From positions 1-64,000 of IMG/VR virus record IMGVR_UViG_3300013130_002194: DNA of 64,000 nucleotides; one strand, given 5' to 3'. A program made the translations under genes and the position numbers. The notes under the pieces were generated by a model, which searched no databases, had not been told where the DNA came from, and saw only the letters and a program-made list of their open reading frames with translations. This document shows positions 320-63,099 of the stretch, one piece after another; positions within the stretch are counted from its first letter, which is position 1, and each line of letters starts with the position of its first letter. This DNA is from a virus.

Positions 320-1243
320 ATGAACAGTATTTTCGATGAGTATTACGAACTCCTAATCAAAGAAGCTATTGGTCTTAATGAAATGCCAGTAAGCCGCATT
401 GCGTCAGATCTAACTTCTTTTAAGCCAAGCAAAGATCTTGGTTCTTATTCTATTACAGATGTTACTGGTGAAGATGAAGAAAAGATCAAGCAAGTAATAG
501 TCAAGATAGGAGAGTTTGTTATTGACAACCTAAAAGAACCATCTTCTGTTTCTAGAAAAGAATATCAAGATGTTGTTGCTGGTTTTATTAGAAAGGCTAT
601 TAATGAAATTTTTCCAGATTCCAAAAAGGCTACAGGAGGCAAGCCTTTCACTGCCAGAGATTATTATGCTGCAAGAGCTATTATCAAGGCTTTCGAAGAT
701 CAAAACATTATTAAAACAAAAGATACTGGTGGTAAAATCGAAAAAGGTACAGTAGAAAAAGATGAATTACCACAAACTGTTTCTGATATTACTCAAGACG
801 CTTCTAACGAAGTAGAGGCCAAGGTACAAGATGACTTGGATGACACTAAAGAGAAGCAAGAAGAAACTGAGACTGAAACTGGTGAAATTGGTTTAGTCAA
901 AGGAGACAAGTTTGAACCAACAGCAGTTTACTCTGTTGATGAGACCTCTGATAAAGATAATCTAAGCCCCATTGAGAAGTATGCTCTTGACTATGTAGAA
1001 CCTGAAACTAGAGGCATTGACATTGTTAAGATGTTAAAATATTCTATCAAGCTCAGAAACAAAGAAAGTGAAATCAGAGATGTGCTTGATTCTCTAGTCA
1101 AAAAAGGTATCTTAGCAAAAACTGGTGAGGATGATAGCTCCGGTAGAGGTATTTCAAAGACTGGTGATGATACCGTTGAAGATATCTTAAAGAGCATGGG
1201 TCCAAGAGAGAATCCTGAAACTGGAGTTTTAGGCGACCTATAA
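320..1243 (+). CDS. Probable head-internal or virion protein with capsid-targeting-like N-terminus
   Basis: A 307-residue acidic protein of unknown function. The N-terminus MNSIFDEYYELLIKEAIG resembles the amphipathic start shared by several other late genes here and contains I-K-E followed by A, a plausible gp21 protease site near residue 15. Residues about 155-195 are a Glu/Asp/Thr-rich low-complexity linker. Residues about 230-265 look like a small helical, winged-helix-like segment (RGIDIVKMLKYSIKL onwards). A late box precedes it. Targeting to the prohead is inferred from the N-terminus; no biochemical role is visible. Confidence 0.7.
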   Translation: MNSIFDEYYELLIKEAIGLNEMPVSRIASDLTSFKPSKDLGSYSITDVTGEDEEKIKQVIVKIGEFVIDNLKEPSSVSRKEYQDVVAGFIRKAINEIFPDSKKATGGKPFTARDYYAARAIIKAFEDQNIIKTKDTGGKIEKGTVEKDELPQTVSDITQDASNEVEAKVQDDLDDTKEKQEETETETGEIGLVKGDKFEPTAVYSVDETSDKDNLSPIEKYALDYVEPETRGIDIVKMLKYSIKLRNKESEIRDVLDSLVKKGILAKTGEDDSSGRGISKTGDDTVEDILKSMGPRENPETGVLGDL

Positions 1244-9494: not shown

Positions 9495-9502
9495 AATAAA
9501 TA
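9495..9502 (+). promoter_or_regulatory. Late promoter box (AATAAATA)
   Basis: Box ends 5 bases before the ATG at 9508; no ribosome-binding site between them. Confidence 0.65.
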
Positions 9503-11733: not shown

Positions 11734-12639
11734 TTAGTGTCTTGAAAGCTCCTGCATGTACAACTTCAATGGAGGGTGATCAGAATTTTCTAATGTACCT
11801 TCCTCGATTACCTGTTCGTTGCTTTCAACTACAGGGCGATCAAGATTTCTAGAAACAGACTGGGATACAGCTTGCTCAGTTAGAGTTTCGATGTTCTTAG
11901 CTTCTTGCTTTTCAAACATCTTACATGTATAGTCATAGTTTTCTTTGATGAACTCAGCAGACTTACCCTTAAATACCTTGGCTAAATAGGCTTTCTTATT
12001 ATCAGGTAGACCAGCTGTTTTTTGTTCAAAAATTAAATTAGAGACCGCTCTATTGTAAGATTCATTGAGCTGCTTGTTCTCAGCCTTTAGAGCCTCAATG
12101 ATCTTGGAGCTTTCATCAATCTTTTGCTTGCCATCCAATACAGCCTCGCGGATTGTCTCTTTACCAAGTACTAGATCAACAGAAAGCATGCTGCGTAGCT
12201 CGTTGAGAACCTGAGCAGAGCGTCTGTTTTGAACAGCCTCTTCAATGGCTGTCTTTGGAAGATTTTCGTCAAGATAGGCCTCGAGATAGTTGGAAATTGA
12301 TTCAACAAGAGATTGTTTGAATGAGGCAGCGTCTTCGTTGAGGGCCTTTTCGTACTTGCGTACTACAGTCTTTAGCTTACCAGCATGGTTCTCGTTGATT
12401 GCTTCAACAACCTTCAAAAGCTTATCGGAGTGGTTACGGTCAATAGCCTCAACGAGCTTCTCTACCTTGGCAGAGTGGTCTTCGTCGATCTGAACCAATA
12501 ATCCCTCGAGTTGCAATTTTGCGCGATCTTCAGCAGCCTTGTTTACTTGCTGCTCGAATGCCTCGGAAATTTGGTTTAGTGATTCCTCACTAAGAATATC
12601 CTTGGTAACTTCCTTTAATTTTTCAATTAGAGTTGACAT
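11734..12639 (-). CDS. 22: Prohead core scaffold protein, gp22-like
   Basis: A 301-residue, almost wholly helical, acidic protein between the capsid gene and the prohead protease gene, the T4 position of gene 22 (269 residues). Residues about 48-100 hold three imperfect coiled-coil repeats of the form I-x3-H-x2-K-(L/V)-x3-V-E-A-I-x2-N-H. It should assemble the inner scaffold of the prohead and be degraded by gp21; L-S-E-E and similar sites are abundant. Identification rests on position and character rather than on a catalytic motif. Confidence 0.85.
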   Translation of the reverse strand: MSTLIEKLKEVTKDILSEESLNQISEAFEQQVNKAAEDRAKLQLEGLLVQIDEDHSAKVEKLVEAIDRNHSDKLLKVVEAINENHAGKLKTVVRKYEKALNEDAASFKQSLVESISNYLEAYLDENLPKTAIEEAVQNRRSAQVLNELRSMLSVDLVLGKETIREAVLDGKQKIDESSKIIEALKAENKQLNESYNRAVSNLIFEQKTAGLPDNKKAYLAKVFKGKSAEFIKENYDYTCKMFEKQEAKNIETLTEQAVSQSVSRNLDRPVVESNEQVIEEGTLENSDHPPLKLYMQELSRH

Positions 12640-12787: not shown

Positions 12788-13462
12788 TTATTTAAGCTTA
12801 TTGATAAAAATTAATACCTGCTCAAGTAAAAATTTATCTACCTCTTTGCGAGGCAAATTACCAATAGACTTTTCAAACTTATTATAAGCCTCTTCTAGCT
12901 CACCAGAATCACTTATAACCCATTGCTTGGATTCTAGAATACCGTTAACAAATGCCTTTGGACAAGAAGGGTCAGCTACAACATCAATAGCAACTAACTT
13001 CATGTTCTTTACTCTATTTACATCTTCTTTAATAGAGTCAGGTTCTAATTGACCTAAACATCTAGTAGATACACCAGGTGTAACTCCATCATCAATAAGA
13101 TTCTGTACAATCTTACCCATTGGTGTACTTAAAACAAGAGACTTACCAACAAAATAATTACCTTCTTGTCTTAAATTTTGAACACTGTGACAGGCTCTTG
13201 AAAGATCGATATCAACAGTAGTTGGGTGATTCAATTCACCTAATGCTCTACCTGACTTAATCATTTCATCAGAATATCTCTTTACTTCAGAGACCATTTC
13301 CATTAAATCATAAAGACGTCTATTCTTATTGACTTCATTAGCCATCATGAAAGGCCCTTCAATGTACATTCTAGGACCTTTCCCGTCACGCAGATTCTTT
13401 TCTTCTTTTATATATGTGAAGCTGCCAAAGTCAGGAGTTTCAACTAAAAGTCTATGTGACAT
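12788..13462 (-). CDS. 21: Prohead core protease, gp21 family
   Basis: A 224-residue serine protease of the T4 gp21 type (T4: 212). The catalytic His lies in G-E-L-N-H-P (about 75-80) and the catalytic Ser in P-G-V-S-T-R (about 129-134); VAIDVVADPSCPKAF (about 157-171) is the conserved strand that follows. It matures the prohead by cutting gp23, scaffold and internal proteins after hydrophobic-x-Glu. It has its own late promoter and lies upstream of the core, scaffold and capsid genes, the T4 order. Confidence 0.95.
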   Translation of the reverse strand: MSHRLLVETPDFGSFTYIKEEKNLRDGKGPRMYIEGPFMMANEVNKNRRLYDLMEMVSEVKRYSDEMIKSGRALGELNHPTTVDIDLSRACHSVQNLRQEGNYFVGKSLVLSTPMGKIVQNLIDDGVTPGVSTRCLGQLEPDSIKEDVNRVKNMKLVAIDVVADPSCPKAFVNGILESKQWVISDSGELEEAYNKFEKSIGNLPRKEVDKFLLEQVLIFINKLK

Positions 13463-30308: not shown

Positions 30309-31040
30309 TTAAACTTTCAAGGCCTTGTTCCAAAGCACCAACTGCAATCGAGGACTAAAGTTGAAGCCGTGCTTCTTACAAACCTCTGCTACCCAAGGAG
30401 CAACTGCATTATGCTCATCACGAGAACCGCAACAAGGCATCAACCAAACACGATCTTCAGTAAGATTGAACGGTTTAATATACTTCTCAATAATCTCTTC
30501 AACATCACTATCCTTCTGCACAACAAACTTAAAGAAAGAATAGATATCTGCATGAAACTTAATAACTTCTGGAATGTATCTCTTCTCAACTGGATCACCA
30601 TTAGTTGATAACTTAGGAGAAACAGTAAAGGTAGCACCAATATGCTCCCAAAATGCATCAGGTTTAATTGTACAGTTAGTCTCAAAATCAATGCCAGGAT
30701 AGATATCATACTTATTAAGAAAGGTTTCAATAAACTCAATTAAAGCCTTTTGCTGAATAAGAGGTTCACCACCAGTAATCTTAAGAACATGATTACTTTT
30801 CAATTTATTAATGTAATCATTATCTTCGAAGATCTTAAAAATCTCTTCAAAGGTTAGTTTATTCTTTTTAGACCAGCTAACATAGCTATCACAACCAAAC
30901 GGAGAATCAGGAGACTTAAACCCGATACAAGTCAAGTTACACATTGCCAGCCGCATGAAGATGCTAGGCCTACCAACCAAATGACCTTCACCTTCAATCG
31001 TTTCAAAGACGAAGTCATCAGAGAGAAATAATGAACTCAT
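30309..31040 (-). CDS. queE: 7-carboxy-7-deazaguanine synthase, QueE
   Basis: A 243-residue radical SAM enzyme that contracts carboxytetrahydropterin to CDG. TIEGEGHLVGRPSIFMRLA (14-32) is the family start and LKITGGEPLIQ (about 83-93) is the S-adenosylmethionine G-G-E-P motif. The cluster-binding cysteines are Cys34, Cys38 and Cys50: C-x3-C-x11-C instead of the usual C-x3-C-x2-C, an expanded loop seen in some QueE lineages. It has its own sigma70-type promoter located over the 3' end of queD. Together with folE and queD next door it supplies the first three steps of preQ0 synthesis. Confidence 0.93.
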   Translation of the reverse strand: MSSLFLSDDFVFETIEGEGHLVGRPSIFMRLAMCNLTCIGFKSPDSPFGCDSYVSWSKKNKLTFEEIFKIFEDNDYINKLKSNHVLKITGGEPLIQQKALIEFIETFLNKYDIYPGIDFETNCTIKPDAFWEHIGATFTVSPKLSTNGDPVEKRYIPEVIKFHADIYSFFKFVVQKDSDVEEIIEKYIKPFNLTEDRVWLMPCCGSRDEHNAVAPWVAEVCKKHGFNFSPRLQLVLWNKALKV

Positions 31041-31046
31041 AATTCA

Positions 31047-31074
31047 ATGATATAGGAATCACTCTTATGTTCAA
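31047..31074 (-). promoter_or_regulatory. Sigma70-type promoter of queE
   Basis: TTGAAC (31069-31074) overlapping the queD stop, 16-base spacer, TATCAT (31047-31052), 6 bases to the ATG at 31040. Confidence 0.7.
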
Positions 31075-31766
31075 GCCCATTTGGTACCAAAGTCCCAGGT
31101 ACTAGGACGATTCTTACCTCCGACTGGAACACCTTGCGGAGGAGCAACAGTCTGCTTAGGGGTAACCCTCACTGGCTTATTTGTTTCATAAGGCTTAGCT
31201 TCAGTCTGCTTTTCAGACTTGGCAGGTGGTGCCCAGACAGGTTCAGCAGTCTTACCTTTCTTACCTTTGTCTTTAGCAGGAGCAACTACAGTTTCTTCAG
31301 CAATTTCTGCCACAGACACTTGAGTATTTTCAGCAGAATAAATAGCAGAGTTCTTCTCATGCTCAAACACCTCAACAGAGTGAGCGCGAACACGACCGCT
31401 AGTCTTATGCTTCACGTAGCTATCTGCAGCATTAAAACAATACTTGGCAAACATCTCAATGCCGACCCCTTCATCCATAACAACAATTGAAGCAGCTCCA
31501 GCCTTTTCAAGAGCCTCAAACTCCTTCATAGCAGGATCATTCTTAGCAAGAACGAGAGTATGATCAAACTTCTCCTGCAAGAATCCCTTAAATTCGTCAA
31601 AGTCTCCGAAGTCAACAACCCAATTGTTACCGTCAAGAGATTCAGCTGTAAACGTAAACTTGCCAACCAAACGGTAACCGTGAATGAATCTGCAGTGGGA
31701 CTTAGCATTAGGTTGACGGAATGCAGCGCTCCCGAGTTCAATAACCTTCGTGGAATAATATCTCAT
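31071..31766 (-). CDS. queD: QueD/PTPS-like 6-carboxytetrahydropterin synthase with C-terminal extension
   Basis: A 231-residue protein whose first 145 residues follow the QueD/PTPS fold: GSAAFRQPNAKSHCRFIHGY (12-31) with catalytic Cys25, WVVDFGDFDEFKGF (49-62), F-D-H-T-L (67-71) and EVFEHEKNSAIY near 132-143. Two of the usual zinc histidines differ (S-A-A-F for A-A-H, and H-G-Y for H-G-H), as in a phage-type subfamily I recall from T4-like genomes. Residues 146-231 are a Pro/Lys/Val-rich tail of unknown use. The start is ATG 31766; a longer open frame upstream overlaps folE and is rejected. Divergent from folE. Confidence 0.82.
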   Translation of the reverse strand: MRYYSTKVIELGSAAFRQPNAKSHCRFIHGYRLVGKFTFTAESLDGNNWVVDFGDFDEFKGFLQEKFDHTLVLAKNDPAMKEFEALEKAGAASIVVMDEGVGIEMFAKYCFNAADSYVKHKTSGRVRAHSVEVFEHEKNSAIYSAENTQVSVAEIAEETVVAPAKDKGKKGKTAEPVWAPPAKSEKQTEAKPYETNKPVRVTPKQTVAPPQGVPVGGKNRPSTWDFGTKWA

Positions 31767-31773
31767 ACTTAAT

Positions 31774-31801
31774 ATGTTATGAACTTTTTTCCTAGAATCA
31801 A
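31774..31801 (-). promoter_or_regulatory. Weak sigma70-type promoter of queD
   Basis: TTGATT (31796-31801), 16-base spacer, TAACAT (31774-31779, four of six consensus bases), 7 bases to the ATG at 31766. Its -35 lies 3 bases from the -35 of the folE promoter. Confidence 0.45.
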
Positions 31802-31804
31802 GCC

Positions 31805-31832
31805 TTGACTTGAACGAATTTGTCTCTATAAT
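31805..31832 (+). promoter_or_regulatory. Sigma70-type promoter of folE
   Basis: TTGACT (31805-31810), 16-base spacer, TATAAT (31827-31832), 6 bases to the ATG at 31839. Confidence 0.85.
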
Positions 31833-31838
31833 AGGCGT

Positions 31839-32495
31839 ATGAATGATGAGATTAGAGAGAAAAATTACCTCCTCCCGACTGCTAACAGTTCTATGACTCT
31901 GACAGAAGAGCAAAAGCTTGCTATTATCGACAAAGGCGCTAAGGCATATGAGGCGTTTTTGGATGCTCTTCGCATTGACTGGCGTAATGATCCGAATAGC
32001 TCTGGTACTCCTCGACGTGTTGCAAAGTCGTTTGTGTTTGATTTGATCTCGGGATGTTATGAGGCTCCTCCGAAGGTTACTTCTTTCCCTGCTGATGGGT
32101 ATGATGGAATTATTTCTCAGACGAACATTCCATTGACTAGTATGTGTAGCCATCACCATTTGGCGTTTACTGGGTTGGTGCATGTTGCTTATATTCCTAG
32201 TCTTGAAGGTCGTGTTATTGGCTTGAGTAAGCTAAATCGTATTGTTGAGTTTTATGGTCGTCGACCTCAGATTCAAGAAGGGTTGACAATGCAGATTCAT
32301 AAGGCTATTAACGAAGTCTGTGAGCATAATAAGGGTGTTGCAGTTGTTGTTAAGGCTCAGCATACTTGTGCTTGTAATCGAGGTGTGAGACATCAAGGTT
32401 GTTATATGGTTACTTCTAAGCTATCTGGAGACTTCTATGACGATGAGAAGACTCGCAAAGAGTTTTACGACTTCATTAAGATGGCTGAAGAGTAG
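31839..32495 (+). CDS. folE: GTP cyclohydrolase I, FolE
   Basis: A 218-residue FolE that opens GTP to 7,8-dihydroneopterin triphosphate, the entry to 7-deazaguanine (and folate) synthesis. Zinc and active-site residues are visible in TSMCSHHHLAFTG (Cys103, His106) and QHTCACNRGV (Cys177); GLSKLNRIVEFYGRRPQIQE (128-147) is the family signature. Length matches the bacterial enzyme (about 220). In a phage with queD, queE, queC, queF and dpdA, feeding the modified-base pathway is its most likely role. Monocistronic with a strong leaderless promoter. Confidence 0.97.
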   Translation: MNDEIREKNYLLPTANSSMTLTEEQKLAIIDKGAKAYEAFLDALRIDWRNDPNSSGTPRRVAKSFVFDLISGCYEAPPKVTSFPADGYDGIISQTNIPLTSMCSHHHLAFTGLVHVAYIPSLEGRVIGLSKLNRIVEFYGRRPQIQEGLTMQIHKAINEVCEHNKGVAVVVKAQHTCACNRGVRHQGCYMVTSKLSGDFYDDEKTRKEFYDFIKMAEE

Positions 32496-33072: not shown

Positions 33073-34179
33073 ATGAGTGATGATACATCTTTCGATATGG
33101 AGTTGCCAGATATTCCTATGCCTGGTCAAGAAATTAATACCGACATTGAAGACAAGATTCAAGTTGGTTTTAAGTTTAGCTTTGTAGGAGCTGGTCAAGG
33201 TGGTTCAAGAATTGCTGAGACCTTTCACAAGCTTGGTTACAAGAGAACTTGTGTAATTAATACTGCCCAGCAAGACTTGGCCACAATTGAAGTCCCAAAC
33301 AAGCTCAAGATTGGTAGTGACTCTGGAGCAGGCAAGAATAGAGAAGTTGCTAAGCAGGCTTTAATTGAACAGAGAGAAGATGTTCTTGATTTATTCAGAA
33401 AGTCTTTCGCTAGTAACTTTGATCGTATTTTTGTTTGCGCTGGTGCTGGTGGTGGTACTGGTTCTGGTACAACAACCGAGCTAATTAAGATTGCCAAGGA
33501 CTATCAAGATTCAATTAAATCTACTTCTGACAAGGTAGGAGTATTTTTAGCCTTGCCAAAGAACACAGAAGGTAAGAAGTGTGCTGAGAATGCTCTTAAG
33601 ACTTTAACTGAGATTCTTGAGCTTGTAGACCAAGGAATTGTTTCTCCATTGGTAATTATTGATAATGAGAAGATTAATACAATCTATCCAAGATTGAGTA
33701 TTAACCAGTTTTGGAATACTTCTAACAACAGCATCTGCTCTCTATTCAATTTATTTAATAATATTATTACAAAGAATAGTAGCTATACTTCTTTTGATAA
33801 TAAGGATTACAAGACAGTGCTTGATAGTGGCATTATTGTATTTGGAGCAACCCAGGTTACTCAATGGTCTGATGGAACTGAGATTTCTAAGGCTATGAGA
33901 GATAATCTCAAGAAGAATATCTTGTCTGGTGGCATTGATCTTGGTACTGGTAACATCGCTGCTGCGGTAGTTGTTGGGGATTCAAACGCTCTCGACAATA
34001 TCCCGCAAGAATATCTTGACCAGGCTTTTGAGCAACTAACTAGAACCTTGAAGAATAACTCAACAGTTCATCAAGGCATTTACAAAGGTAACAAGGCTGG
34101 CTTGAGTATCTTTACTGCAATTGGTGGTTTGGGTAAGCCAACTGCTAAGCTAGAAGAACTTAAGAAGCTTTCTACTTAG
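33073..34179 (+). CDS. Tubulin/FtsZ-superfamily GTPase
   Basis: A 368-residue member of the tubulin/FtsZ superfamily. GAGQGGSRIAE (39-49) is the first nucleotide loop, GAGGGTGSGTT (124-134) is the tubulin signature, and SFDNKDYKTVLDSG (240-253) matches the T7 catalytic loop with the Asp residues D-x-x-D retained but the preceding Asn replaced by Ser. It therefore probably binds and hydrolyses GTP and polymerises. It resembles FtsZ/CetZ more than the PhuZ of phiKZ-like phages as far as I can judge. A late box precedes it, so it is made with structural proteins rather than early. Role (positioning heads or DNA, or interfering with host division) is unknown. Confidence 0.88.
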   Translation: MSDDTSFDMELPDIPMPGQEINTDIEDKIQVGFKFSFVGAGQGGSRIAETFHKLGYKRTCVINTAQQDLATIEVPNKLKIGSDSGAGKNREVAKQALIEQREDVLDLFRKSFASNFDRIFVCAGAGGGTGSGTTTELIKIAKDYQDSIKSTSDKVGVFLALPKNTEGKKCAENALKTLTEILELVDQGIVSPLVIIDNEKINTIYPRLSINQFWNTSNNSICSLFNLFNNIITKNSSYTSFDNKDYKTVLDSGIIVFGATQVTQWSDGTEISKAMRDNLKKNILSGGIDLGTGNIAAAVVVGDSNALDNIPQEYLDQAFEQLTRTLKNNSTVHQGIYKGNKAGLSIFTAIGGLGKPTAKLEELKKLST

Positions 34180-34798: not shown

Positions 34799-35250
34799 TA
34801 TTCGTCTCTTGTTTCATCTGTATCAGTTTCGCTAGGTATTTCTAACAACCCAGCATCATCGATAATCTTTTTGAGTACACCTAGTATCTCTTCTGCATTT
34901 TTAGCAGTTACTTTCTTTGTAAGCAAATTAGTTTGGAAGCCACTCATATCAACTGTATTAGGATCAAGCCAAAAGGCCTTCTTAATGAGATTGATTAGAT
35001 AAATAACACCTTCTGGGGTTGGTGTCTTATCTTCTTCATCTTCAACTTCATCGTCTATTGGTGTAGTAGCATCTCGTGGCATTGGCATTTCCCCAGTAGT
35101 TAAGGATTGTGGTCCTTCTGGAGCATCTCCGATTTGTGGAGAAGATGGAATAGGTGTACCACCACCACTTCCCATGCCTCCTTGCTCGTTAATTTGTAAG
35201 AGGAATTTTACTACTGTGGCATCAAAAGATGAAATATTAGGCTTGGGCAT
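34798..35250 (-). CDS. Late protein with capsid-targeting-like N-terminus, unknown
   Basis: A 150-residue acidic protein. Residues 7-27 (S-S-F-D-A-T-V-V-K-F-L-L-Q-I-N-E-Q-G-G-M-G) combine an amphipathic helix, a hydrophobic-x-Glu site (I-N-E) and a Gly-rich stretch like that after the capsid protein cleavage site. Then come a Pro/Asp-rich linker (35-80) and a C-terminal helical domain (about 85-140). It overlaps the gene before it by 14 bases and the next by 1. Probably head-internal; no catalytic motif. Confidence 0.6.
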   Translation of the reverse strand: MPKPNISSFDATVVKFLLQINEQGGMGSGGGTPIPSSPQIGDAPEGPQSLTTGEMPMPRDATTPIDDEVEDEEDKTPTPEGVIYLINLIKKAFWLDPNTVDMSGFQTNLLTKKVTAKNAEEILGVLKKIIDDAGLLEIPSETDTDETRDE

Positions 35251-35698
35251 AGCTTACTCTTGGTCTATTTGGGTTGTTTAAAGTTTCAACATTGTCACTA
35301 ACTACAGTCTTTGCTAAATTAGTTTCTTCGTCTTCCTCTGGTTTTAATGGACTTAAATTACCAGTCTTCTTTATTTGATTTAAATCTTTAATTTTAGCAA
35401 CAATTTCTTGCTCTGATTGTGTTAGAGGCTTGCCAACAGCTAGCTTGTTAATTGTTGTTCTGATATCACCTTCATTGTCTTGTAATTGCAATTTAGCAAT
35501 GGCTCTAGGTGTACCAGCTCTAATTTTAGTCTTATCAATATCTTGCTCCATGTCACCAGTATCCATTGTACCAGGCATTGGTCTGATGGGGCTTGTGTTA
35601 GGATTTATAGCGGTATTTCCAGACTGGCCAAATGTGCCAGTAGAAGCATACTCAAGAAGACCGTAGTATTTGTTGAGAGTTTGCTCAAATTTACTCAT
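35237..35698 (-). CDS. Late protein with capsid-targeting-like N-terminus, unknown
   Basis: A 153-residue protein from the ATG at 35698, which is 5 bases after an exact TATAAATA box; an upstream ATG at 35719 lies before that box and is rejected. Start MSKFEQTLNKYYGLLEYAST has L-L-E at 14-16, followed by G-T-F-G-Q-S-G-N. The rest is polar and Pro/Asp/Asn-rich, with no fold that I recognise. Likely a prohead or internal protein. Confidence 0.62.
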   Translation of the reverse strand: MSKFEQTLNKYYGLLEYASTGTFGQSGNTAINPNTSPIRPMPGTMDTGDMEQDIDKTKIRAGTPRAIAKLQLQDNEGDIRTTINKLAVGKPLTQSEQEIVAKIKDLNQIKKTGNLSPLKPEEDEETNLAKTVVSDNVETLNNPNRPRVSYAQA

Positions 35699-35702
35699 AC
35701 TA

Positions 35703-36236
35703 TTATTTATACAAACCATGCTTTACTTTCAGATCGTTAAAGTATTCTTCTGATAAAAACGTTAATCTATAATTTTTAGCAAAGGTTTTTATACCTCTAA
35801 ATGAAAAGTCTTTTTTATTCTTTTTTTCTATCTGAATCTTTAGCTTTTCTTTTAATTCCTGCATTTCTCCTGAAGTAAACTTATCATCAATGCACTGAAA
35901 TGGTATTTTGTCATTATAAAACACTAATGGCAAAGTTTTATTGAGCTTGTTTGTAAGCTGTACAATTTCATCATCTTCTACATGTTCTTGTGGGTTATAA
36001 TAAAACACAAACGAAAAAAATGTTTTTTCTTTATTGTATATTTCACAAACTGTCTTAATAAAGTTATGGTAAAAAAACTGTTTATGATGCTCGTAGTTTA
36101 TCGAAAATAGTTGACCGTAAAACGTAACAACATCACTTACTGTTGCTGGAATAATTTTATCTTCCAATAAGAACCTTAAATCAATCAACGAAATTGTATT
36201 AAGATTAAGCTTCTTTATATATTTTTTCTTATCCAC
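35703..36236 (-). CDS. Unknown protein
   Basis: A 177-residue Lys/Phe/Asn-rich protein, basic at both ends (MDKKKYIKKLN... and KHGLYK), with a hydrophobic strand FFSFVFYYNP at about 75-84. No motif recognised. A TTACAAT element 10 bases before the ATG is a possible -10 box but lacks a clear -35. Its 3' end contains the late box of the next gene. Confidence 0.55.
   Translation of the reverse strand: MDKKKYIKKLNLNTISLIDLRFLLEDKIIPATVSDVVTFYGQLFSINYEHHKQFFYHNFIKTVCEIYNKEKTFFSFVFYYNPQEHVEDDEIVQLTNKLNKTLPLVFYNDKIPFQCIDDKFTSGEMQELKEKLKIQIEKKNKKDFSFRGIKTFAKNYRLTFLSEEYFNDLKVKHGLYK
35704..35711 (-). promoter_or_regulatory. Late promoter box (TATAAATA)
   Basis: Exact consensus, 5 bases before the ATG at 35698. 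Confidence 0.75.
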
Positions 36237-37344: not shown

Positions 37345-38783
37345 CGACCTTAACAATTGATGTTGATAACAGACGCAATACTGCCTCTTTAAGCGGAGAC
37401 TTTAAAGCAGTAAGAGAACACTTCTCTGTAAAGAATAAGTCTGCTGTTTTTGCTCGCAAAAGAGGTTTCTTTGCGCCAGAGAGAACATATGTTATTACAC
37501 CTACAGGGAGAATAGAACCTCATTTTTATACTGTTCTGCAAAAGTACGCCCAAACTAGTGAAGATACGACTGAAATAGTTTTAACAGAGAGCTTTAAAAA
37601 GCTATTCTCACCCAAGCTAAAGTTAGAATGTCTTGATAAGAAATTGCGTCTTGATTTGCGTGATTATCAAATTGAGGTTGTTCATGCAGCTTTAAAATTT
37701 GGTTTTGGTATTATTGAGCTCGCTACTGCTGGTGGCAAGACTCTTATTATGTCTTCTATCTTAGAAAACATCTATCACCAAAATAAAAACTTTAAATGCC
37801 TGCTCATTGTTCCAGATTTAGGTCTAGTCAATCAATCATTTAACGATTTTAAAGACTATAATGTTAGCTTTACCTACAGCACCTGGACAGGTAATTCAGA
37901 GCTTGATTTAAGTACCAATGTAATTATAGCTAACATGGGTATATTACAATCTGAGAATTCTGATACTGAGTGGACAGAAAATGTTGATCTTCTCATTGTT
38001 GATGAGGTTCACAAAGTTAGACGCGGTAACAAGATCAATGATATAATTAAAAAGATCTATACTATTCATAAGTTTGGCTTTACTGGAACTTTGCCTGAAG
38101 AAGTATTAGATCAATGGAACATTTTTGCCAAGTTTGGTGATAGAATCTACTCTAAGATGTCTCACGAACTTAAGGCTGAAAGCTATGTTACTCCAGCCAA
38201 GGTAACCGCTCTCGTTCTTAATTATAAAACTGACCCTCAATTTGAAAGAACTAAAGACAGTACACCAGCTGATGAGTATATTGCCGAGCTGAAGTTCTTG
38301 CTAACAAACGACTTTCGCAATGGTATTATTAATCACCTAGTTAACAAGTTTGATAATAACTCTCTTGTTCTTGTAGACTTAATTGATCATGGTCAAGCTA
38401 TATATGATAAAATTACAACAAGCTCTACAACCAAAGAGGTCTATTTCATTAGAGGCGAAGTAGAAGTAGAAGAACGTAAGAGGGTTCAGACATTAATAGA
38501 GCAGCAAACTAATATTTGTGTTATTGCTATCTCTAAAATATTTTCTACGGGTATTAATATCAAAAATCTTCACTATTTAATCTTTGCTGGTGGTGGAAAA
38601 GCAAAAGTAAAGATAGTACAATCAATAGGTCGTGGGTTACGATTACACGAAGATAAGAAAGAGCTTATCATTATTGATATTGCTGACAACCTAAAGTATG
38701 GTATGCAGCATTATCAAAAAAGAAAGCAGCTTTACAATCAAGAAAAAATACCACACTCCTTTACTAACTGCCATGAAAAATAA
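37341..38783 (+). CDS. uvsW: RNA-DNA/branch-migration helicase UvsW
   Basis: A 480-residue SF2 helicase (T4 about 500). A small N-terminal domain is followed by LRDYQIEVVHAALKFGFGII (Q-motif region, about 105-124), Walker A ELATAGGKTL (about 125-134), Walker B LLIVDEVHKVRRGN (about 215-228), FGFTGTLPEE (motif III), and QSIGRGLRLHED (motif VI, about 430-441). UvsW processes stalled forks and R-loops and shuts off origin use. Its end overlaps the late sigma gene by 11 bases. Confidence 0.95.
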   Translation: MTTLTIDVDNRRNTASLSGDFKAVREHFSVKNKSAVFARKRGFFAPERTYVITPTGRIEPHFYTVLQKYAQTSEDTTEIVLTESFKKLFSPKLKLECLDKKLRLDLRDYQIEVVHAALKFGFGIIELATAGGKTLIMSSILENIYHQNKNFKCLLIVPDLGLVNQSFNDFKDYNVSFTYSTWTGNSELDLSTNVIIANMGILQSENSDTEWTENVDLLIVDEVHKVRRGNKINDIIKKIYTIHKFGFTGTLPEEVLDQWNIFAKFGDRIYSKMSHELKAESYVTPAKVTALVLNYKTDPQFERTKDSTPADEYIAELKFLLTNDFRNGIINHLVNKFDNNSLVLVDLIDHGQAIYDKITTSSTTKEVYFIRGEVEVEERKRVQTLIEQQTNICVIAISKIFSTGINIKNLHYLIFAGGGKAKVKIVQSIGRGLRLHEDKKELIIIDIADNLKYGMQHYQKRKQLYNQEKIPHSFTNCHEK

Positions 38784-39279
38784 TTTACCTAAACTCAAGA
38801 AACAAGAAACCTTTGTAATGGATCCATCCTCAAAGCCACCCAAAGAACAATTTTATGTAGATCCTAAAGAGTTCTATAGGCAAATTAAAGATTATTACAA
38901 GAAAGGAGAAGTAAACGACTATTTGGCTGAATCAATTTATAAAATCGCAAAAGGTCTTTCTTATGCTCCTAATTTTATTAATTATTCTTACCGAGATGAT
39001 ATGGTTGGAGATGCTGTCGTAAAGATGTATACAGCCTTAAAGAATAAGAAGTTTAACGTAAAGACCAAGGATAAGAACGGGTACAATTATAACCCATTTA
39101 GTTACTTTACAACCATTGCATTTCATGCATTTATCACTAGAATTAAAAAAGAAAAGAAAGAGAAAGACACTATAGCCCTTTACCAAGAAGCACAGTTTAG
39201 AGAGGTTATGCAATCGCTACCTAATGGTGATTGTGTCTATATCGATCCTGATAGGGAAGATAATTATAACCAAGCTTAG
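38773..39279 (+). CDS. 55: Late-transcription sigma factor gp55
   Basis: A 168-residue sigma-like protein (T4: 185). The conserved core is NFINYSYRDDMVGDAVVKMY (about 72-91) followed by NPFSYFTTIAFHAFITRIKK (about 113-132), equivalent to sigma region 2 that recognises the TATAAATA box. Start ATG 38773 lies inside the uvsW 3' end. The many TATAAATA-like boxes found here are the expected targets. gp33, the co-activator, is not identified; gp45 clamp is present at 54520. Confidence 0.92.
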   Translation: MKNNLPKLKKQETFVMDPSSKPPKEQFYVDPKEFYRQIKDYYKKGEVNDYLAESIYKIAKGLSYAPNFINYSYRDDMVGDAVVKMYTALKNKKFNVKTKDKNGYNYNPFSYFTTIAFHAFITRIKKEKKEKDTIALYQEAQFREVMQSLPNGDCVYIDPDREDNYNQA

Positions 39280-47716: not shown

Positions 47717-48427
47717 ATGAGTAAATGTGTAATTCCTGTTAGTGGTGGCATTGATTCAACTGTCATGCTTTATGATGCTGCTGCATCTAAGACTTATTCA
47801 GATATCTTCGCAATTAGTTTTTATTACGGTCAGCGTCATGCTACGAAGGAGCTGGCTTGTGCGACTAAATCTGTTAACACTTTAAAGGAAAAATATCCAG
47901 AAATTAATATCTATCACCGAACCATTGATCTAAGCTTCTTCGGTGAGATTGCTATTAGCTCTTCAATTACAAATTATAGTATTGCTGTTGCTCAGACTAA
48001 AGATGTTCTCGGTGATCCACAACCAGTTAATTATGTACCGTTTCGTAATCTAATGATGCTATCGATTCTTTGCTCTTTTGCAGAGGCTCATGGTGCTCGA
48101 GATGTTTACTATGGTAGCGCTCTTGTTGATTCTCAGGCTGGTTATTGGGATTCTAGTAATGAGTTTTATTTGAATCTTGCTTCTGTTATTGGTCTCAATC
48201 GCAAGACTAAACTTTCTATTATTACCCCATTGATTAAGCTTGATAAGAAAGATATTATCAAGTTGGGTGATGAGCGTGGGGTTGACTTTAAGAGTACCTG
48301 GACTTGTTATGAAGGTAAAGAACAAGCCTGTGGGTATTGCCCGGCCTGCTCTAGTCGTATCAAAGGCTTTATGGATTATATGATGGTTGACCCTATTGAA
48401 TACAGCCGAGTGATTAAATTTATCTAA
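47717..48427 (+). CDS. queC: 7-cyano-7-deazaguanine (preQ0) synthase, QueC
   Basis: A 236-residue ATP-dependent enzyme converting CDG to preQ0. The PP-loop S-G-G-I-D-S-T (9-15) binds ATP, YYGQRHATKE (about 37-46) and VPFRNLMMLS (about 106-115) are family motifs, and the zinc site is Cys197, Cys205, Cys208 and Cys211 (TCYEGKEQACGYCPACSSR region). It is complete and of normal length. It starts an operon with a class II glutamine amidotransferase one base downstream, a glycosyltransferase and helicase 41, so preQ0 synthesis is timed with DNA replication. Confidence 0.96.
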   Translation: MSKCVIPVSGGIDSTVMLYDAAASKTYSDIFAISFYYGQRHATKELACATKSVNTLKEKYPEINIYHRTIDLSFFGEIAISSSITNYSIAVAQTKDVLGDPQPVNYVPFRNLMMLSILCSFAEAHGARDVYYGSALVDSQAGYWDSSNEFYLNLASVIGLNRKTKLSIITPLIKLDKKDIIKLGDERGVDFKSTWTCYEGKEQACGYCPACSSRIKGFMDYMMVDPIEYSRVIKFI

Positions 48428-53984: not shown

Positions 53985-54539
53985 ATGAATCAAGGACATG
54001 ACGAACCAATGGATCAAGAAGCAATTTATGCAATAGCCCATTTGGCTGGACAAGCAGCTAGTGAGCTAAAGGCTCTTGATAAGTTGGCTTTAGGCTCAAG
54101 TCCAAACATGAAAGGATTGCAATTTGAACCTCAAGAACTTATTCGCCAAAATTTTTTACCAAGGATGCAGGTTAATGGAGTGCCCCCTGCATCCGCAAAC
54201 TATCGCATGCGAGCACCACAACCACCTCAACAGCAACCACCTCAACAGCAACCACCTCAACAGCAACCACCTCAACAGCAACCACCTCCACTACAAATGA
54301 TGCAGCCGCAACCAGCACAACAGGCGCCTCAAGTCTTTGCTGGTGTAGCTTCTAATATTTCAGAGACTCAAATTTCATTGTTGATAGAGAAGTTGCTTAG
54401 AGTTGAGCGTTTGCTTGATTCTTGTGTTAGTGGTCAAGAACGTCTGCAAACAACTCTCGATAAGAGCTTGGAAAAGTTGTTGCAAAAGAAAATGAAAGAC
54501 ATTAAAATTACGTTCAAAGATGACTATTCCGATTCATAA
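53985..54539 (+). CDS. Pro/Gln-repeat protein between genes 32 and 45
   Basis: A 184-residue protein from ATG 53985 (an upstream start lies within the gene 32 terminator and is rejected). The N-terminal 60 residues are helical and acidic (MNQGHDEPMDQEAIYAIAHL). Residues about 75-115 are a Pro-Gln tract with four exact P-P-Q-Q-Q repeats. The C-terminal third is a predicted coiled coil (LLIEKLLRVERLLDSCVSGQ, about 136-155) followed by a Lys-rich end. It overlaps the clamp gene by 20 bases. Possibly a linker protein at the replication complex; unrecognised. Confidence 0.65.
   Translation: MNQGHDEPMDQEAIYAIAHLAGQAASELKALDKLALGSSPNMKGLQFEPQELIRQNFLPRMQVNGVPPASANYRMRAPQPPQQQPPQQQPPQQQPPQQQPPPLQMMQPQPAQQAPQVFAGVASNISETQISLLIEKLLRVERLLDSCVSGQERLQTTLDKSLEKLLQKKMKDIKITFKDDYSDS
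54222..54281 (+). repeat. Four exact 15-bp coding repeats
   Basis: CCACCTCAACAGCAA repeated four times without mismatch, with a partial fifth copy (CCACCTCCA). A slippage-prone tract coding P-P-Q-Q-Q. Confidence 0.95.
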
Positions 54540-55257
54540 CAAGAATGATTTTGTAGACAAGTTTCTTACTCCCTTGTCTCGAATTAACAACTCCTGCTCA
54601 TTACATCTCAAGGGTGATAAGCTAACTGCTCTTGTAGCTACTCCAGATGCATCAGTTATTCTAAATGCTATCTGGAAGTTTAGTGATGATATCTTTGAAG
54701 AGAATAAGCTAAACATCCCTGATATTAATAAGCTCATTAAGGTTCTTGATTGTATTAGAGAAGAGTATGTATCATTAAAGATTAACTCTAACAACATTAG
54801 TTACAATGAAAAGGGTATTAAGTTTAAGTATCATCTTCTTGAAGATGGTATTTTATCTACCCCTGCTATTAACATTGAAAAGGTAAAGGCATTGAAGTAT
54901 GATACTGAGTTTAATATTGCTGGGCAAGATCTTCAAGCCTTGATTAAGAGCTCAACCTTTGCTTCAGAGACTGATAAGTTATACATTAGAACGGGTGATG
55001 GAATTGTTTATAGCGAGTTGACTGATAAGAACAAGTCTAATGTAGACTCTATTGAGCTTGTACTGTCTTCTGAGTTCTCTGGTTCTGAGATTGATAATCC
55101 GTTGGCTCTTAGCTTTGAAATTATTCGTATCGTGTCATGCAATCGTTTTAGTAATGTAGCAACAAAGATTAATACTAACCTTGGAGTTTTGCTTTTTGAG
55201 CTAAATAATGATAACGTTGAACTTATCTATGTCGCATCAGGATTGGCAGAAACCTAA
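54520..55257 (+). CDS. 45: Sliding clamp gp45
   Basis: A 245-residue PCNA-like clamp (T4: 228). It has the two-domain all-beta pattern with RINNSCSLHLKGDKLTALVA (about 21-40), ATPDASVILNAIW, and SNVATKINTNLGVLLFELNN (about 212-231). It tethers polymerase gp43 to DNA and activates gp55-dependent late transcription in T4. It overlaps the genes on both sides. Confidence 0.88.
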   Translation: MTIPIHNKNDFVDKFLTPLSRINNSCSLHLKGDKLTALVATPDASVILNAIWKFSDDIFEENKLNIPDINKLIKVLDCIREEYVSLKINSNNISYNEKGIKFKYHLLEDGILSTPAINIEKVKALKYDTEFNIAGQDLQALIKSSTFASETDKLYIRTGDGIVYSELTDKNKSNVDSIELVLSSEFSGSEIDNPLALSFEIIRIVSCNRFSNVATKINTNLGVLLFELNNDNVELIYVASGLAET

Positions 55258-58090: not shown

Positions 58091-59141
58091 CGACTACGCT
58101 GTACAAAAGTTTTTACAGTTTGCTGGTTACCCAAAGTTCAAGCGCCACACTCAAGTTTATGAGGGTGGCTGCCCTACTTGTAGAGAGGGTAACTCTTGGG
58201 GCAAGAAAAGACGTCTTTATTTCATTACTAAAAAGAGTCTTATTTGTTGCCATAATTGTGGTTTAAGTCTTTCAACCTATAGCTGGGTTAAAGAGGTATG
58301 TAAGTTGTCTGATAAAGATATTCTCAAAGAACTATCAGAGAGAGATTTTTTACTCAAAGATAGTGTTTCTGCTCAGGAGCAGAAACCTGAGAAAGAGCAA
58401 ACAATAAAAAAGCAAAGTGCTCTGCCTGATGATAGTATTAATCTTAGCGATCTAAACCAAGTAGAATACTTTAAAAACGAACCAGGTATTAAGGCTGCTT
58501 TAGAATACATTAAAGAACGTAAGCTTGATATAGCCTGTAACAAGCCAAAAGACTTCTGGATCTCTCTTAAAGACCCTATTCATAAAAATCGTTTAGTTAT
58601 CCCGTTTTATGATAAAGGTAAGATTGTATATTATCAAACACGTACAATCATTGAGAATAAAACTAAGCACTTCCCAAAGTATCTTAGTAAAATGGGTGCA
58701 CAGAAGTCTTTATTTAACATTGATAATGTAGATGCATCTAAGGAGAATTACTTTGTATTTGAAGGGCCAATTAATGCCTGCTTTAGTAAGAACAGCATAG
58801 CTGTTGCTGGTATTCAAGAGAGTAGCAAAAAGAACTTTACTGAGTTTCAAGGTCAGCAATTGAAGAGATTGTTTCTTATGAAGCGAATCTGGGTACTTGA
58901 TAGTCAATGGCTAGATAATGCTAGCAGAAAGAAGAGCAAGATCTTGCTTGATCAAGGAGAGACTGTTTTTGTGTGGCCAAAAGAGTATGGTACTATTTTC
59001 AAAGACTTTAATGATATTGCAAAAAAATTGAACCTTTCCGAAATTCCAGAAAAGTTCATTCTCGATAATAGTTATGACAGGCTTAAAGGTAATATTAAGC
59101 TCGGTATTATTAATTACTCTTCATCGCTTGAGAGCATGTAG
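58074..59141 (+). CDS. 61: DNA primase gp61
   Basis: A 355-residue primase (T4: 342). The N-terminal zinc ribbon is CPTC (33-36) with CCHNC (58-62). The catalytic TOPRIM-like part has YFVFEGPINACFS (about 222-234), IWVLDSQWLDN (about 268-278) and DFNDIAKKL. It makes RNA primers with helicase gp41. ATG 58074 is chosen: an upstream in-frame extension overlaps the preceding small gene completely and has no similarity to primases. Its 3' end overlaps the convergent late gene by 28 bases. Confidence 0.9.
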   Translation: MRVLPNDYAVQKFLQFAGYPKFKRHTQVYEGGCPTCREGNSWGKKRRLYFITKKSLICCHNCGLSLSTYSWVKEVCKLSDKDILKELSERDFLLKDSVSAQEQKPEKEQTIKKQSALPDDSINLSDLNQVEYFKNEPGIKAALEYIKERKLDIACNKPKDFWISLKDPIHKNRLVIPFYDKGKIVYYQTRTIIENKTKHFPKYLSKMGAQKSLFNIDNVDASKENYFVFEGPINACFSKNSIAVAGIQESSKKNFTEFQGQQLKRLFLMKRIWVLDSQWLDNASRKKSKILLDQGETVFVWPKEYGTIFKDFNDIAKKLNLSEIPEKFILDNSYDRLKGNIKLGIINYSSSLESM

Positions 59142-59545
59142 CCCTTGAAAGACTCAGTCAAAGCAGACATTTCTTGAGCGAGTCTAGCAATTCTCTTTCT
59201 CTCACCTCTTGCGATTTCAGCAAATAATGTACCCTCACCAGCATCATTCAATAATTTTTGAATAGAGTTATTATCAACACCGTTTAGATATGATGTAAAA
59301 TTGGTAAGCTTTTCAATCCATTGCCCCAATTGCTTCACTTGCTTTTCTCTAACTTGATCTTCCGGAGATACAGCAGGTGCACCTGTTGGAGTGTTTGTAT
59401 CAAAATCTTCAGGATTTGTACCATCGTCCAATGAAGCAGCAAAGGCTTCTTCGTCCCCAATTTCATTTAGGTTTACTTCTAACTCTGGATTTTCAGGTTC
59501 GTCTTGCTCTAACAGATGAAAAACTCTGTGATTAAATGCTTTCAT
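59114..59545 (-). CDS. Late head-internal protein candidate
   Basis: A 143-residue acidic protein. MKAFNHRVFHLLEQDEPENP is the clearest capsid-targeting-like start of the set (L-L-E at 11-13), followed by a Pro/Asp/Glu-rich stretch and a C-terminal helical domain (about 65-140, KQLGQWIEKLTNFTSYLNGV...). Expressed from one half of a palindromic late promoter. No enzyme motif. Confidence 0.62.
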   Translation of the reverse strand: MKAFNHRVFHLLEQDEPENPELEVNLNEIGDEEAFAASLDDGTNPEDFDTNTPTGAPAVSPEDQVREKQVKQLGQWIEKLTNFTSYLNGVDNNSIQKLLNDAGEGTLFAEIARGERKRIARLAQEMSALTESFKGYMLSSDEE

Positions 59546-59548
59546 AGC

Positions 59549-59562
59549 TATAAATATTTATG
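59549..59562. promoter_or_regulatory. Palindromic bidirectional late promoter (TATAAATATTTATG)
   Basis: Plus box TATAAATA (59549-59556) lies 8 bases before ATG 59565; minus box CATAAATA (59555-59562) lies 9 bases before ATG 59545. The two start codons are only 19 bases apart. Confidence 0.75.
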
Positions 59563-59564
59563 TT

Positions 59565-59936
59565 ATGAAACGACTTTTATTCGAGGATATGGATATGTAT
59601 TATAACAAATACAATGCCAATATCGCTGCTCGAGATCTCAAGCCACCCACACACACCTTACAAGACTTATTAAACTATTTCACAAATCAATATCCAAATA
59701 TTATTAGAGCACCTAAGCAATCACCTGCTCCTCTAATTAACTCTGATACTAAGTCATTAGAGATGTATAATATGGTTATGGATTTAAAATCTAATATTCA
59801 GGCATCTATGGGTAACCCAGTTATTCGTAAAAACCCTAAATTATTATCCAGAGCCAGTCATGCAGTTAAGTTATTAAATGGTGTATTGAAGAGTATTAAA
59901 ACAGTTGATAAACTGCTGCTTCAATATAAAATCTAG
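59565..59936 (+). CDS. Late protein, unknown
   Basis: A 123-residue protein starting MKRLLFEDMDMYYNKYNA; L-F-E at 5-7 is a possible protease site near the N-terminus, fitting the capsid-targeting-like group less well than others. Residues about 65-120 are helical and basic. It is followed one base later by a membrane protein gene. No family recognised. Confidence 0.58.
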   Translation: MKRLLFEDMDMYYNKYNANIAARDLKPPTHTLQDLLNYFTNQYPNIIRAPKQSPAPLINSDTKSLEMYNMVMDLKSNIQASMGNPVIRKNPKLLSRASHAVKLLNGVLKSIKTVDKLLLQYKI

Positions 59937-62140: not shown

Positions 62141-62166
62141 AAGCTGGGTACTTTCGTACCCAGCTT
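62141..62166 (-). terminator. Rho-independent terminator
   Basis: Stem AAGCTGGGTAC / GTACCCAGCTT with a 4-base loop; on the minus strand it is followed by eight T. It ends the unit of the gene at 62191-63078. Confidence 0.9.
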
Positions 62167-62190: not shown

Positions 62191-62796
62191 TTATACTTGG
62201 AAAAGCTCTTGACCTGGCTTTGTGAGCTTGCTATGAGGCTTGTTGTTCTTACCTGTCATAGCATTAATGGCTGGCTGTGGGTTGTGAGCCTTTGGATCAG
62301 CCTGAATATTTGGAATCTTACCTGAATCAGCCTTGCCACCTGTAGCAGCATATCCACTTGCAGTTGGCTTGTTACCCTTGCCGGTCAAGGTGTTAATAGC
62401 TGGTTGTGGGTTATGTGGCTTTGGCTCTGGCTCGCTAACAATGGCTTCTTCTGGCATATCATTGCCACCTTCATACATTGAACCCTCGTCAGCATCTTCG
62501 AGATCTTCTTCACCTTCATCTTCATCTCCTTCTATACTATCGTCCATATCATCAGCTCCTTCAGAGCCTAGAGATGCCTTCAAGTCATTGAGAGCTGAGA
62601 TAATATTTTCGATCTTCTCGGCCAAATCTCCGTGAGCTGTGTCACCGGATCCAAGACCGCCACCAAGACCGCCACCTTCGAGATCGGCGTCCATTTCCAT
62701 ATCACCGGCACCATCAGTACCTAGAGTCATATCTAGATCTTCTTCGCCCATGACATTTTCGAACAATTCATCAAATTTGTTTTTTTGAGATTTCAT
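62191..62796 (-). CDS. Nested shorter product of the preceding gene (internal start)
   Basis: In-frame ATG at 62796 gives a 201-residue protein beginning MKSQKNKFDELFENVMGEED, itself a capsid-targeting-like start, and containing the acidic region and the two H-N-P-Q-P-A-I-N repeats. A CATAAATA box at 62814-62821 lies 17 bases upstream inside the longer gene. Nested in-frame scaffold products are known in other phages (lambda C/Nu3). Whether both forms are made is not shown by sequence alone. Confidence 0.45.
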   Translation of the reverse strand: MKSQKNKFDELFENVMGEEDLDMTLGTDGAGDMEMDADLEGGGLGGGLGSGDTAHGDLAEKIENIISALNDLKASLGSEGADDMDDSIEGDEDEGEEDLEDADEGSMYEGGNDMPEEAIVSEPEPKPHNPQPAINTLTGKGNKPTASGYAATGGKADSGKIPNIQADPKAHNPQPAINAMTGKNNKPHSKLTKPGQELFQV

Positions 62797-63078
62797 AGTG
62801 TTGCTTCTGAAATTATTTATGCTCTCCTTTAGCTTTTTTCTAGCCTTTTTATTCTTTTTCTGTTTGCCCTTAGTACCCTTTGAAGGTTCATAGGCCTTAG
62901 CCATTACTGGCTCTTTGCTATCAACATCTGAGGCCTTTGAGTTGGCTGAATAATGTGGAGCATCTTTTGGGGTAACCAAGTCTTTCTTAACTTTTGCATC
63001 ACCCGTAATTTTGAATGGTTCAAGGAGTTTTTCAAATCCAGGAAATGAGTGAACTACATCTTCTGATAGATCTTTCAT
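62191..63078 (-). CDS. Late prohead/virion protein with an internal in-frame start
   Basis: A 295-residue protein starting MKDLSEDVVHSFPGFEKLLE at ATG 63078 (L-L-E at 18-20). Residues about 70-95 are Lys-rich. Then a second capsid-targeting-like segment begins at Met95 (MKSQKNKFDELFENVMGEED), followed by a Gly-rich stretch (GGGLGGGLGSG), a strongly acidic region (about 175-215), and two copies of H-N-P-Q-P-A-I-N-x-x-T-G-K-x-N-K-P near the C-terminus. An internal late promoter suggests a second, shorter product from 62796. Scaffold-like in composition; located next to the terminase gene. Confidence 0.68.
   Translation of the reverse strand: MKDLSEDVVHSFPGFEKLLEPFKITGDAKVKKDLVTPKDAPHYSANSKASDVDSKEPVMAKAYEPSKGTKGKQKKNKKARKKLKESINNFRSNTMKSQKNKFDELFENVMGEEDLDMTLGTDGAGDMEMDADLEGGGLGGGLGSGDTAHGDLAEKIENIISALNDLKASLGSEGADDMDDSIEGDEDEGEEDLEDADEGSMYEGGNDMPEEAIVSEPEPKPHNPQPAINTLTGKGNKPTASGYAATGGKADSGKIPNIQADPKAHNPQPAINAMTGKNNKPHSKLTKPGQELFQV
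62814..62821 (-). promoter_or_regulatory. Internal late promoter box (CATAAATA)
   Basis: Located within the 62191-63078 gene, 17 bases upstream of an in-frame ATG at 62796; spacing is longer than typical here. Confidence 0.45.
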
Positions 63079-63085
63079 AAATAGT

Positions 63086-63099
63086 TTTAAATATTTATA
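63086..63099. promoter_or_regulatory. Overlapping divergent late promoter boxes at the terminase gene
   Basis: Plus box TTTAAATA (63086-63093), 5 bases before ATG 63099; minus box TATAAATA (63092-63099), 13 bases before ATG 63078. A CATAAATA at 63076-63083 is an alternative plus box. The two start codons are separated by 20 bases. Confidence 0.6.

Follow-up and report, generated by a model that had tools for sequence, protein, structure and literature searches.

A late-type promoter box and start codon conserved within a gene beside the terminase suggest two products from one gene in uncultured T4-like phages

The window analyzed here is a stretch of 64,000 nucleotides, part of a 68,471-base virus record (IMG/VR record IMGVR_UViG_3300013130_002194). 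The genome is T4-like, encoding a portal, a gp21-type protease, a gp22-type scaffold, a gp23-type major head protein, gp55 and a gp45 clamp. The gene considered in this study (63078..62191, minus strand) is divergent from the large terminase gene at 63099, and the same layout is found in many relatives. The features of the locus are as follows.

62191..63078 (stop codon included), minus strand: long form, 295 aa, 31.5 kDa, pI 4.75, an open reading frame from ATG; the frame is open in relatives.
62191..62796 (stop codon included), minus strand: predicted short form from Met95, 201 aa, 21.0 kDa, pI 4.1; the internal Met is kept in relatives.
62797..63078, minus strand: N-terminal extension of the long form only, 94 aa, basic (computed pI 9.8), with FEKLLE in its N-terminus.
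63092..63099, minus strand: outer late-type box TATAAATA, 13 nt 5' of the long-form ATG (box scan).
62814..62821, minus strand: internal late-type box CATAAATA, coding for ..S-Ile87-Asn88-Asn89 (box scan and conservation).
62797..62808, minus strand: putative 12-nt leader of the short mRNA, assuming a T4-like start site with the box at -13 to -6 (PMC2988020).
62758..62796, minus strand: N-terminus of the short form, MKSQKNKFDELFE, resembling a capsid targeting sequence; its last residues, LFE (105–107), form an L-x-E site of the protease type (motif and AlphaFold helix 101–110).
62566..62634, minus strand: helix predicted with confidence at residues 149–171, HGDLAEKIENIISALNDLKASLG (AlphaFold, pLDDT 86–88).
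62365..62415, minus strand: first copy of a C-terminal repeat, HNPQPAINTLTGKGNKP, residues 222–238 (sequence).
62236..62286, minus strand: second copy of the C-terminal repeat, HNPQPAINAMTGKNNKP, residues 265–281 (sequence).
62141..62166, minus strand: terminator-like hairpin with a T-run, 3' of the gene (hairpin scan).

The first-pass annotation had placed a late promoter box and Met95 in frame inside the gene beside the terminase. This was confirmed: CATAAATA occupies positions 62821–62814, and the Met95 codon (62796–62794) follows 17 nt downstream in the same frame. The short form was also said to keep the acidic region and the repeats, and it does; the 201-residue product with its pI of 4.1 would retain both C-terminal copies of the pattern HNPQPAIN..TGK.NKP. 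The hairpin at 62166–62141 would terminate long and short transcripts alike.

T4 late promoters have an 8-bp TATAAATA box, and T4 sites with single deviations from it have been listed (PMC2988020). The outer box of the gene is TATAAATA itself, and the internal box CATAAATA deviates from the consensus at one position. Moreover, genes for T4-type late transcription are present in the same genome.

38698..39279, plus strand: gp55-type late sigma factor (phrog_234, E 4.8e-27).
54520..55257, plus strand: sliding clamp of the gp45 type (phrog_223, E 9.3e-08).

In T4, the gp45 clamp activates late transcription. The number of boxes alone was rejected as evidence, as there is no surplus over shuffled sequences: in the window, CATAAATA was seen 6 times against 5.45 expected and TATAAATA 8 times against 8.04 expected. 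What exceeds chance is the position and conservation of the internal box, not its mere presence. As for position, ATAAATA lies 3–20 nt 5' of an ORF start at 13 of its 35 sites in the window (6 of them at exactly 5 nt) and at 90 of 264 sites in 38 related contigs (41 at 5 nt). Other orderings of the same seven bases mostly have far fewer start-proximal sites. The nearest of them, TAAATAA, equals it in the window with 13 (2 at 5 nt) and has 56 such sites in the relatives (16 at 5 nt); TAAATAA can overlap ATAAATA sites. The placement of ATAAATA before ORF starts points to a role for the box as a start signal in these phages. As a control, internal Met codons in other genes of the same contigs were inspected. 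Only 5 of 2369 had a box 5–20 nt upstream, and 4 of these 5 turned out to be family members missed by the filter, which leaves 1 in ~2365 (~0.04%).

Conservation was assessed at two evolutionary distances. Close relatives were collected by protein similarity and aligned over the whole gene, with synonymous changes counted in a set of four (the window, L002, L005 and L006). Across these sequences, synonymous variation is seen in 88 of 183 conserved degenerate codons overall and in none of the 15 within codons 85–100. A row of 19 unchanged codons (85–104), as observed, was reached in just 2 of 20000 shuffles. Addition of the more distant L030 abolishes the unchanged run; the sequence near the box differs there, but the box and the Met are still present. 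In the close relatives the unchanged codons reach somewhat beyond the box and the start, which is what might be expected of an overlapping RNA structure or of a DNA site used, for example, in packaging or recombination instead of a promoter. We consider such a site exceedingly improbable, given that the region folds no better as RNA than shuffles do (z -0.43) and that distant relatives share only the late box and the following start. An RNA structure sequestering the inner start was rejected on the same folding result.

Distant contigs were gathered by terminase similarity, blind to the box. Whether it lies beside the terminase or elsewhere, the gene of these relatives consists of a variable extension, Ile-Asn-x, Met and then a SIFDKLYE-like motif, all in one frame; two matches of the first family pattern in L060 were false members and were excluded. 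Among 50 non-redundant members, for which no box was required, ATAAATA is found in frame before the internal Met in 49 and ATAAGTA in the remaining one. The spacing between box and Met is 5 nt in 26 members, 20 nt in 15 and 17 nt in 5, with 8, 11 and 14 nt represented by one member each. A second sample was obtained with a degenerate pattern for the protein motif 3' of the start, again blind to the box, and was pooled with the earlier loci. It comprised at least 104 distinct motif matches, of which one was cut off and 103 were readable. Among the matches listed, ATAAATA is present in 96 of the 103 readable ones (65 at 5 nt, 30 at 20 nt and 1 at 8 nt), and the other 7 have CTAAATA, all at 5 nt (L109, L114, L122, L154, L170, L182 and L206). 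We also considered a genome-wide shift of the late-box consensus in the CTAAATA relatives, and rejected it because their other genes mostly use ATAAATA.

Because the relatives share ancestry, the box counts cannot be taken as independent. Identity to the window protein is only ~20–30% for the majority of the 51 aligned proteins, a divergence that makes inheritance without selection an unlikely reason for the box having been kept. The internal start thus has an initiation signal of its own that is conserved beyond coding needs, and about 100 uncultured phages retain the predicted nested arrangement despite high divergence. Two products from one gene by way of its own internal late promoter, as initially proposed, is a reading that the comparison strongly supports: the box and the Met are maintained at the nucleotide level while the surrounding protein changes and the spacing takes values of 5, 8, 11, 14, 17 and 20 nt.

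Could the conserved element instead be a peptide, with Ile-Asn-x and the following Met forming a protein motif (such as part of a helix or a processing signal) in a gene that has no internal promoter and makes the long form only? The box is always in one reading frame and, in the protein alignment, Asn88 is invariant and Ile87 nearly so, just as such a motif would predict. However, the choice of codons is not what a peptide would call for. It was examined in 81 representatives at 80% identity, a descriptive set that was not used for box frequency because its members had to carry a box-like string. In this set, the box Ile is encoded by ATA in 76 of 76 cases, and the other five representatives have Leu encoded by CTA, one base off ATAAATA. 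The box Asn is AAT in 80 of 81. The third box codon specifies N, T, I, S or K, yet its first base is always A, completing ATAAATA. The background for the family is 29% ATA among Ile codons and 64% AAT among Asn codons, and the Ile of the nearby IFDKL motif, which serves as an internal control, is ATT in 40 cases, ATA in 17 and ATC in 4. In addition, synonymous sites around the box are frozen, and the distance to the Met is not constant; its range of 5–20 nt indicates that a box and a start have been preserved and not a rigid peptide. Even the constant frame needs no peptide, as one of the other two frames would place TAA in frame. The peptide-only explanation is, in our view, quite unlikely, and a nucleotide signal followed by a start codon is the preferred reading.

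The start of the long form shows a similar organization. A late-type box precedes it in 77 of the 81 representatives, with a spacing of 5 nt in 40 and 6 nt in 15. The extensions vary from 67 to 335 aa in relatives and resemble one another less than the short forms do, the median identity being 28% for extensions versus 47% over the first 30 residues of the short form. The best conserved part of the protein is thus the N-terminus of the short form, and this would agree with the possibility that the short form is the only one of consequence, with the true gene start at the internal promoter and Met and with the extension as an untranslated or decaying remnant. We find this possibility very improbable. 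Every distinct relative read has an uninterrupted, in-frame extension, and the box 5' of the extension's start is nearly always retained. In close relatives, many codons of the extension show synonymous variation while the encoded protein sequence is conserved. The long and the short form alike seem to have been maintained.

In the window as well as in the related contigs, a distance of exactly 5 nt between box and start is far commoner than other distances. It is the commonest spacing at both starts of the family and at the starts of other genes in the window, where boxes at 9496, 17306, 19392, 22665, 33061, 35710 and 62115 sit exactly 5 nt before ATG or GTG. The T4 late box starts at -13, and transcription starts about one turn downstream (PMC2988020). 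With the start site taken from T4, a 5-nt gap would put the start codon at about +1. This analogy suggests that leaderless late mRNAs may be a frequent layout in this group of environmental phages. Where the spacing is 20 nt, most leaders have AAAGGT, a sequence of the ribosome-binding type, before the ATG, as would be expected if the corresponding mRNAs carried a short leader with such a sequence. Two properties of the window itself run against the nested reading. Its internal box is CATAAATA and not a perfect TATAAATA, and its 12-nt leader (AGAAGCAACACT) is without a good ribosome-binding sequence.

Several other genes in the window have late-type boxes at their starts. Four boxed genes, at 320–1243 (plus strand), 59114–59545 (minus), 59565–59936 (plus) and 35237–35719 (minus, from an internal Met), encode similar aromatic-hydrophobic N-termini (MNSIFDEYYELL, MKAFNHRVFHLLE, MKRLLFEDM and MSKFEQTLNKYYGLLE) and may represent a set of capsid-targeted proteins. 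In 35237–35719, ATAAATA is located 5 nt upstream of the internal Met8, which is probably the true start of that ORF. At 59545–59565, the late-type boxes of a divergent gene pair overlap head to head (59549–59562), with ~20 bp between the start codons. The gene at 33073–34179 (plus strand) starts 5 nt after a late-type box and has a weak match to the phage tubulin PhuZ (phrog_4733, E 2e-4). The window also encodes QueE-, QueD- and QueC-like genes of the 7-deazaguanine pathway (30309–31040, 31071–32183 and 47717–48427).

The N-termini of the two forms offer a clue to function. L/I-x-E is the motif after which the T4 protease gp21 cuts, and the short N-terminal propeptides of T4 internal proteins are capsid targeting sequences (PMC9026906). 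In the window protein, the N-terminal helices contain FEKLLE in the long form and FDELFE in the short form, where LFE ends at residue 13; this matches the T4 pattern of an N-terminal propeptide of ~10–20 residues ending in L/I-x-E. Among the representatives, 75 of 81 short forms have an L/I-x-E that ends no later than residue 16 (usually at residue 9–13), against a shuffled mean of 15.8, so that the capsid-targeting-like start noted earlier at Met95 holds up across the family. The corresponding count for long forms is 37 of 81 against a shuffled mean of 10.7; even by residue 22 only 51 of 81 have the motif, which is itself short. AlphaFold predicts helices at residues 15–18, 101–110 and 149–171; outside the confident 149–171 block, the protein mostly has pLDDT <60.

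Homology searches gave the window protein no significant PHROG or Pfam family match and no PDB relative. It has no sequence match to the gp22-type head scaffold (phrog_237), nor a known-family match in PHROG or Pfam to the T4 prohead core proteins gp67/gp68 or to the internal proteins. Genes for a scaffold and for a predicted processing enzyme are located elsewhere in the window.

11734–12639: separate gp22-type scaffold gene (family match).
12788..13462, minus strand: prohead protease of the gp21 type (phrog_207, E 1.1e-57).

The separate gp22-type gene makes the nested protein likelier to be a second prohead-core or internal protein. Accordingly, the resemblance to nested scaffold arrangements, which was part of the initial description, stands as a probable head-type nested design but not as a scaffold in the strict sense, since the gp22-type gene is separate and there is no family match. 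From the targeting-like N-termini, the L/I-x-E sites and the T4-like genome we infer a prohead-core or internal protein in two lengths. If two products are indeed made, a role in the head core is the favored assignment, held with some reserve. Alternatively, the two proteins might function outside the prohead core, for instance in late regulation or as an accessory to packaging, given the position of their gene beside the large terminase. Such a function would accord with the divergent orientation that the gene and the large terminase have in the window and in many relatives, with the lack of a head-protein family match and with the scaffold being a separate gene. It accounts less well for targeting-like N-termini with L/I-x-E placed as in T4 internal proteins, for an acidic, mostly disordered body with short helices, and for those relatives that keep the nested design away from the terminase. 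We therefore see a non-head function as unlikely, while still a serious competitor.

Based on these considerations, we propose the following model for the nested gene. Two T4-type late promoters would drive the gene late. The outer promoter (63099–63092) would give the mRNA for the 295-aa form, and the inner promoter (62821–62814), written as Ile-Asn-Asn codons, would give a shorter mRNA whose first start is Met95, and hence the 201-aa form. Both mRNAs would end at the hairpin. Each form would begin with its own capsid-targeting-like helix, FEKLLE or FDELFE, and both would enter the prohead core and be cut there by the gp21-type protease. The long form would be cut after LFE-107 and the short one after the same Glu, there residue 13, and either cut would leave an identical acidic C-terminal fragment. 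As this fragment would be shared after cutting, the basic extension would be a removable domain carried by some subunits only. We estimate the probability of this two-product mechanism at about 75%, with the head role as its leading but less certain part. That a long and a short product come from one gene is in itself very likely on comparative grounds. In a broader formulation the odds appear evenly balanced: a large uncultured T4-like group would have late promoters so near the starts (mode 5 nt) that mRNAs begin at or near the start codon, and a full second start with its promoter could then fit into ~15 coding bases. The conserved case would be a head-core-type protein with two lengths, two targeting signals and one mature fragment after cutting.

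In searches with tblastn, seven different family members had no match in 50,697 phage records, and no cultured relative was found. Named T4-like phages that are near by terminase or protease similarity have no such gene in the stretches read. Likewise, the literature searched, which excluded subscription titles, yielded no head-type gene with an internal late promoter and start conserved this widely. In-frame nested starts are already known, and the conserved internal late promoter plus start in a head-type gene would represent a new variation on them.

Nested head genes have been known singly, from lambda and from T4 gp21. In lambda C/Nu3, a capsid-assembly protein is made from an in-frame start in a longer head gene; this nested scaffold arises by translation within one late transcript, and its parent is a protease. 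Here, in contrast, the entire acidic body would be common to both forms, and the inner one appears to have a promoter of its own. T4 gene 49 and similar T4 genes have nested products: an outer promoter yields the long one, and an internal late promoter or start the short one. Those genes encode a nuclease or a terminase, whereas the present gene has late-type promoters at both positions and a product that looks head-core-like. To our knowledge, the T4 internal proteins are made as a single form. The window protein resembles IPI, IPII and IPIII in its short N-terminal targeting propeptide ending in L/I-x-E, which in T4 is cut by gp21 (PMC9026906), but it has no family match to them. T4 gp21s is a short form from a second start, Met45, of the protease gene, and it is essential for T4 head assembly (PMC9026906). 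In both cases a T4-type head gene contains an internal start, in frame, that gives, or here would give, a second product. They differ in the gene concerned: here the start has its own putative late promoter within the coding sequence, and the protein is acidic and has no protease family match. A promoter and a start kept together while the surrounding protein changes are strong evidence for a second product, as far as sequence can provide it. With T4 gp21s as a parallel, the nested gene offers a test of why T4-type phages may need two lengths of a core protein.
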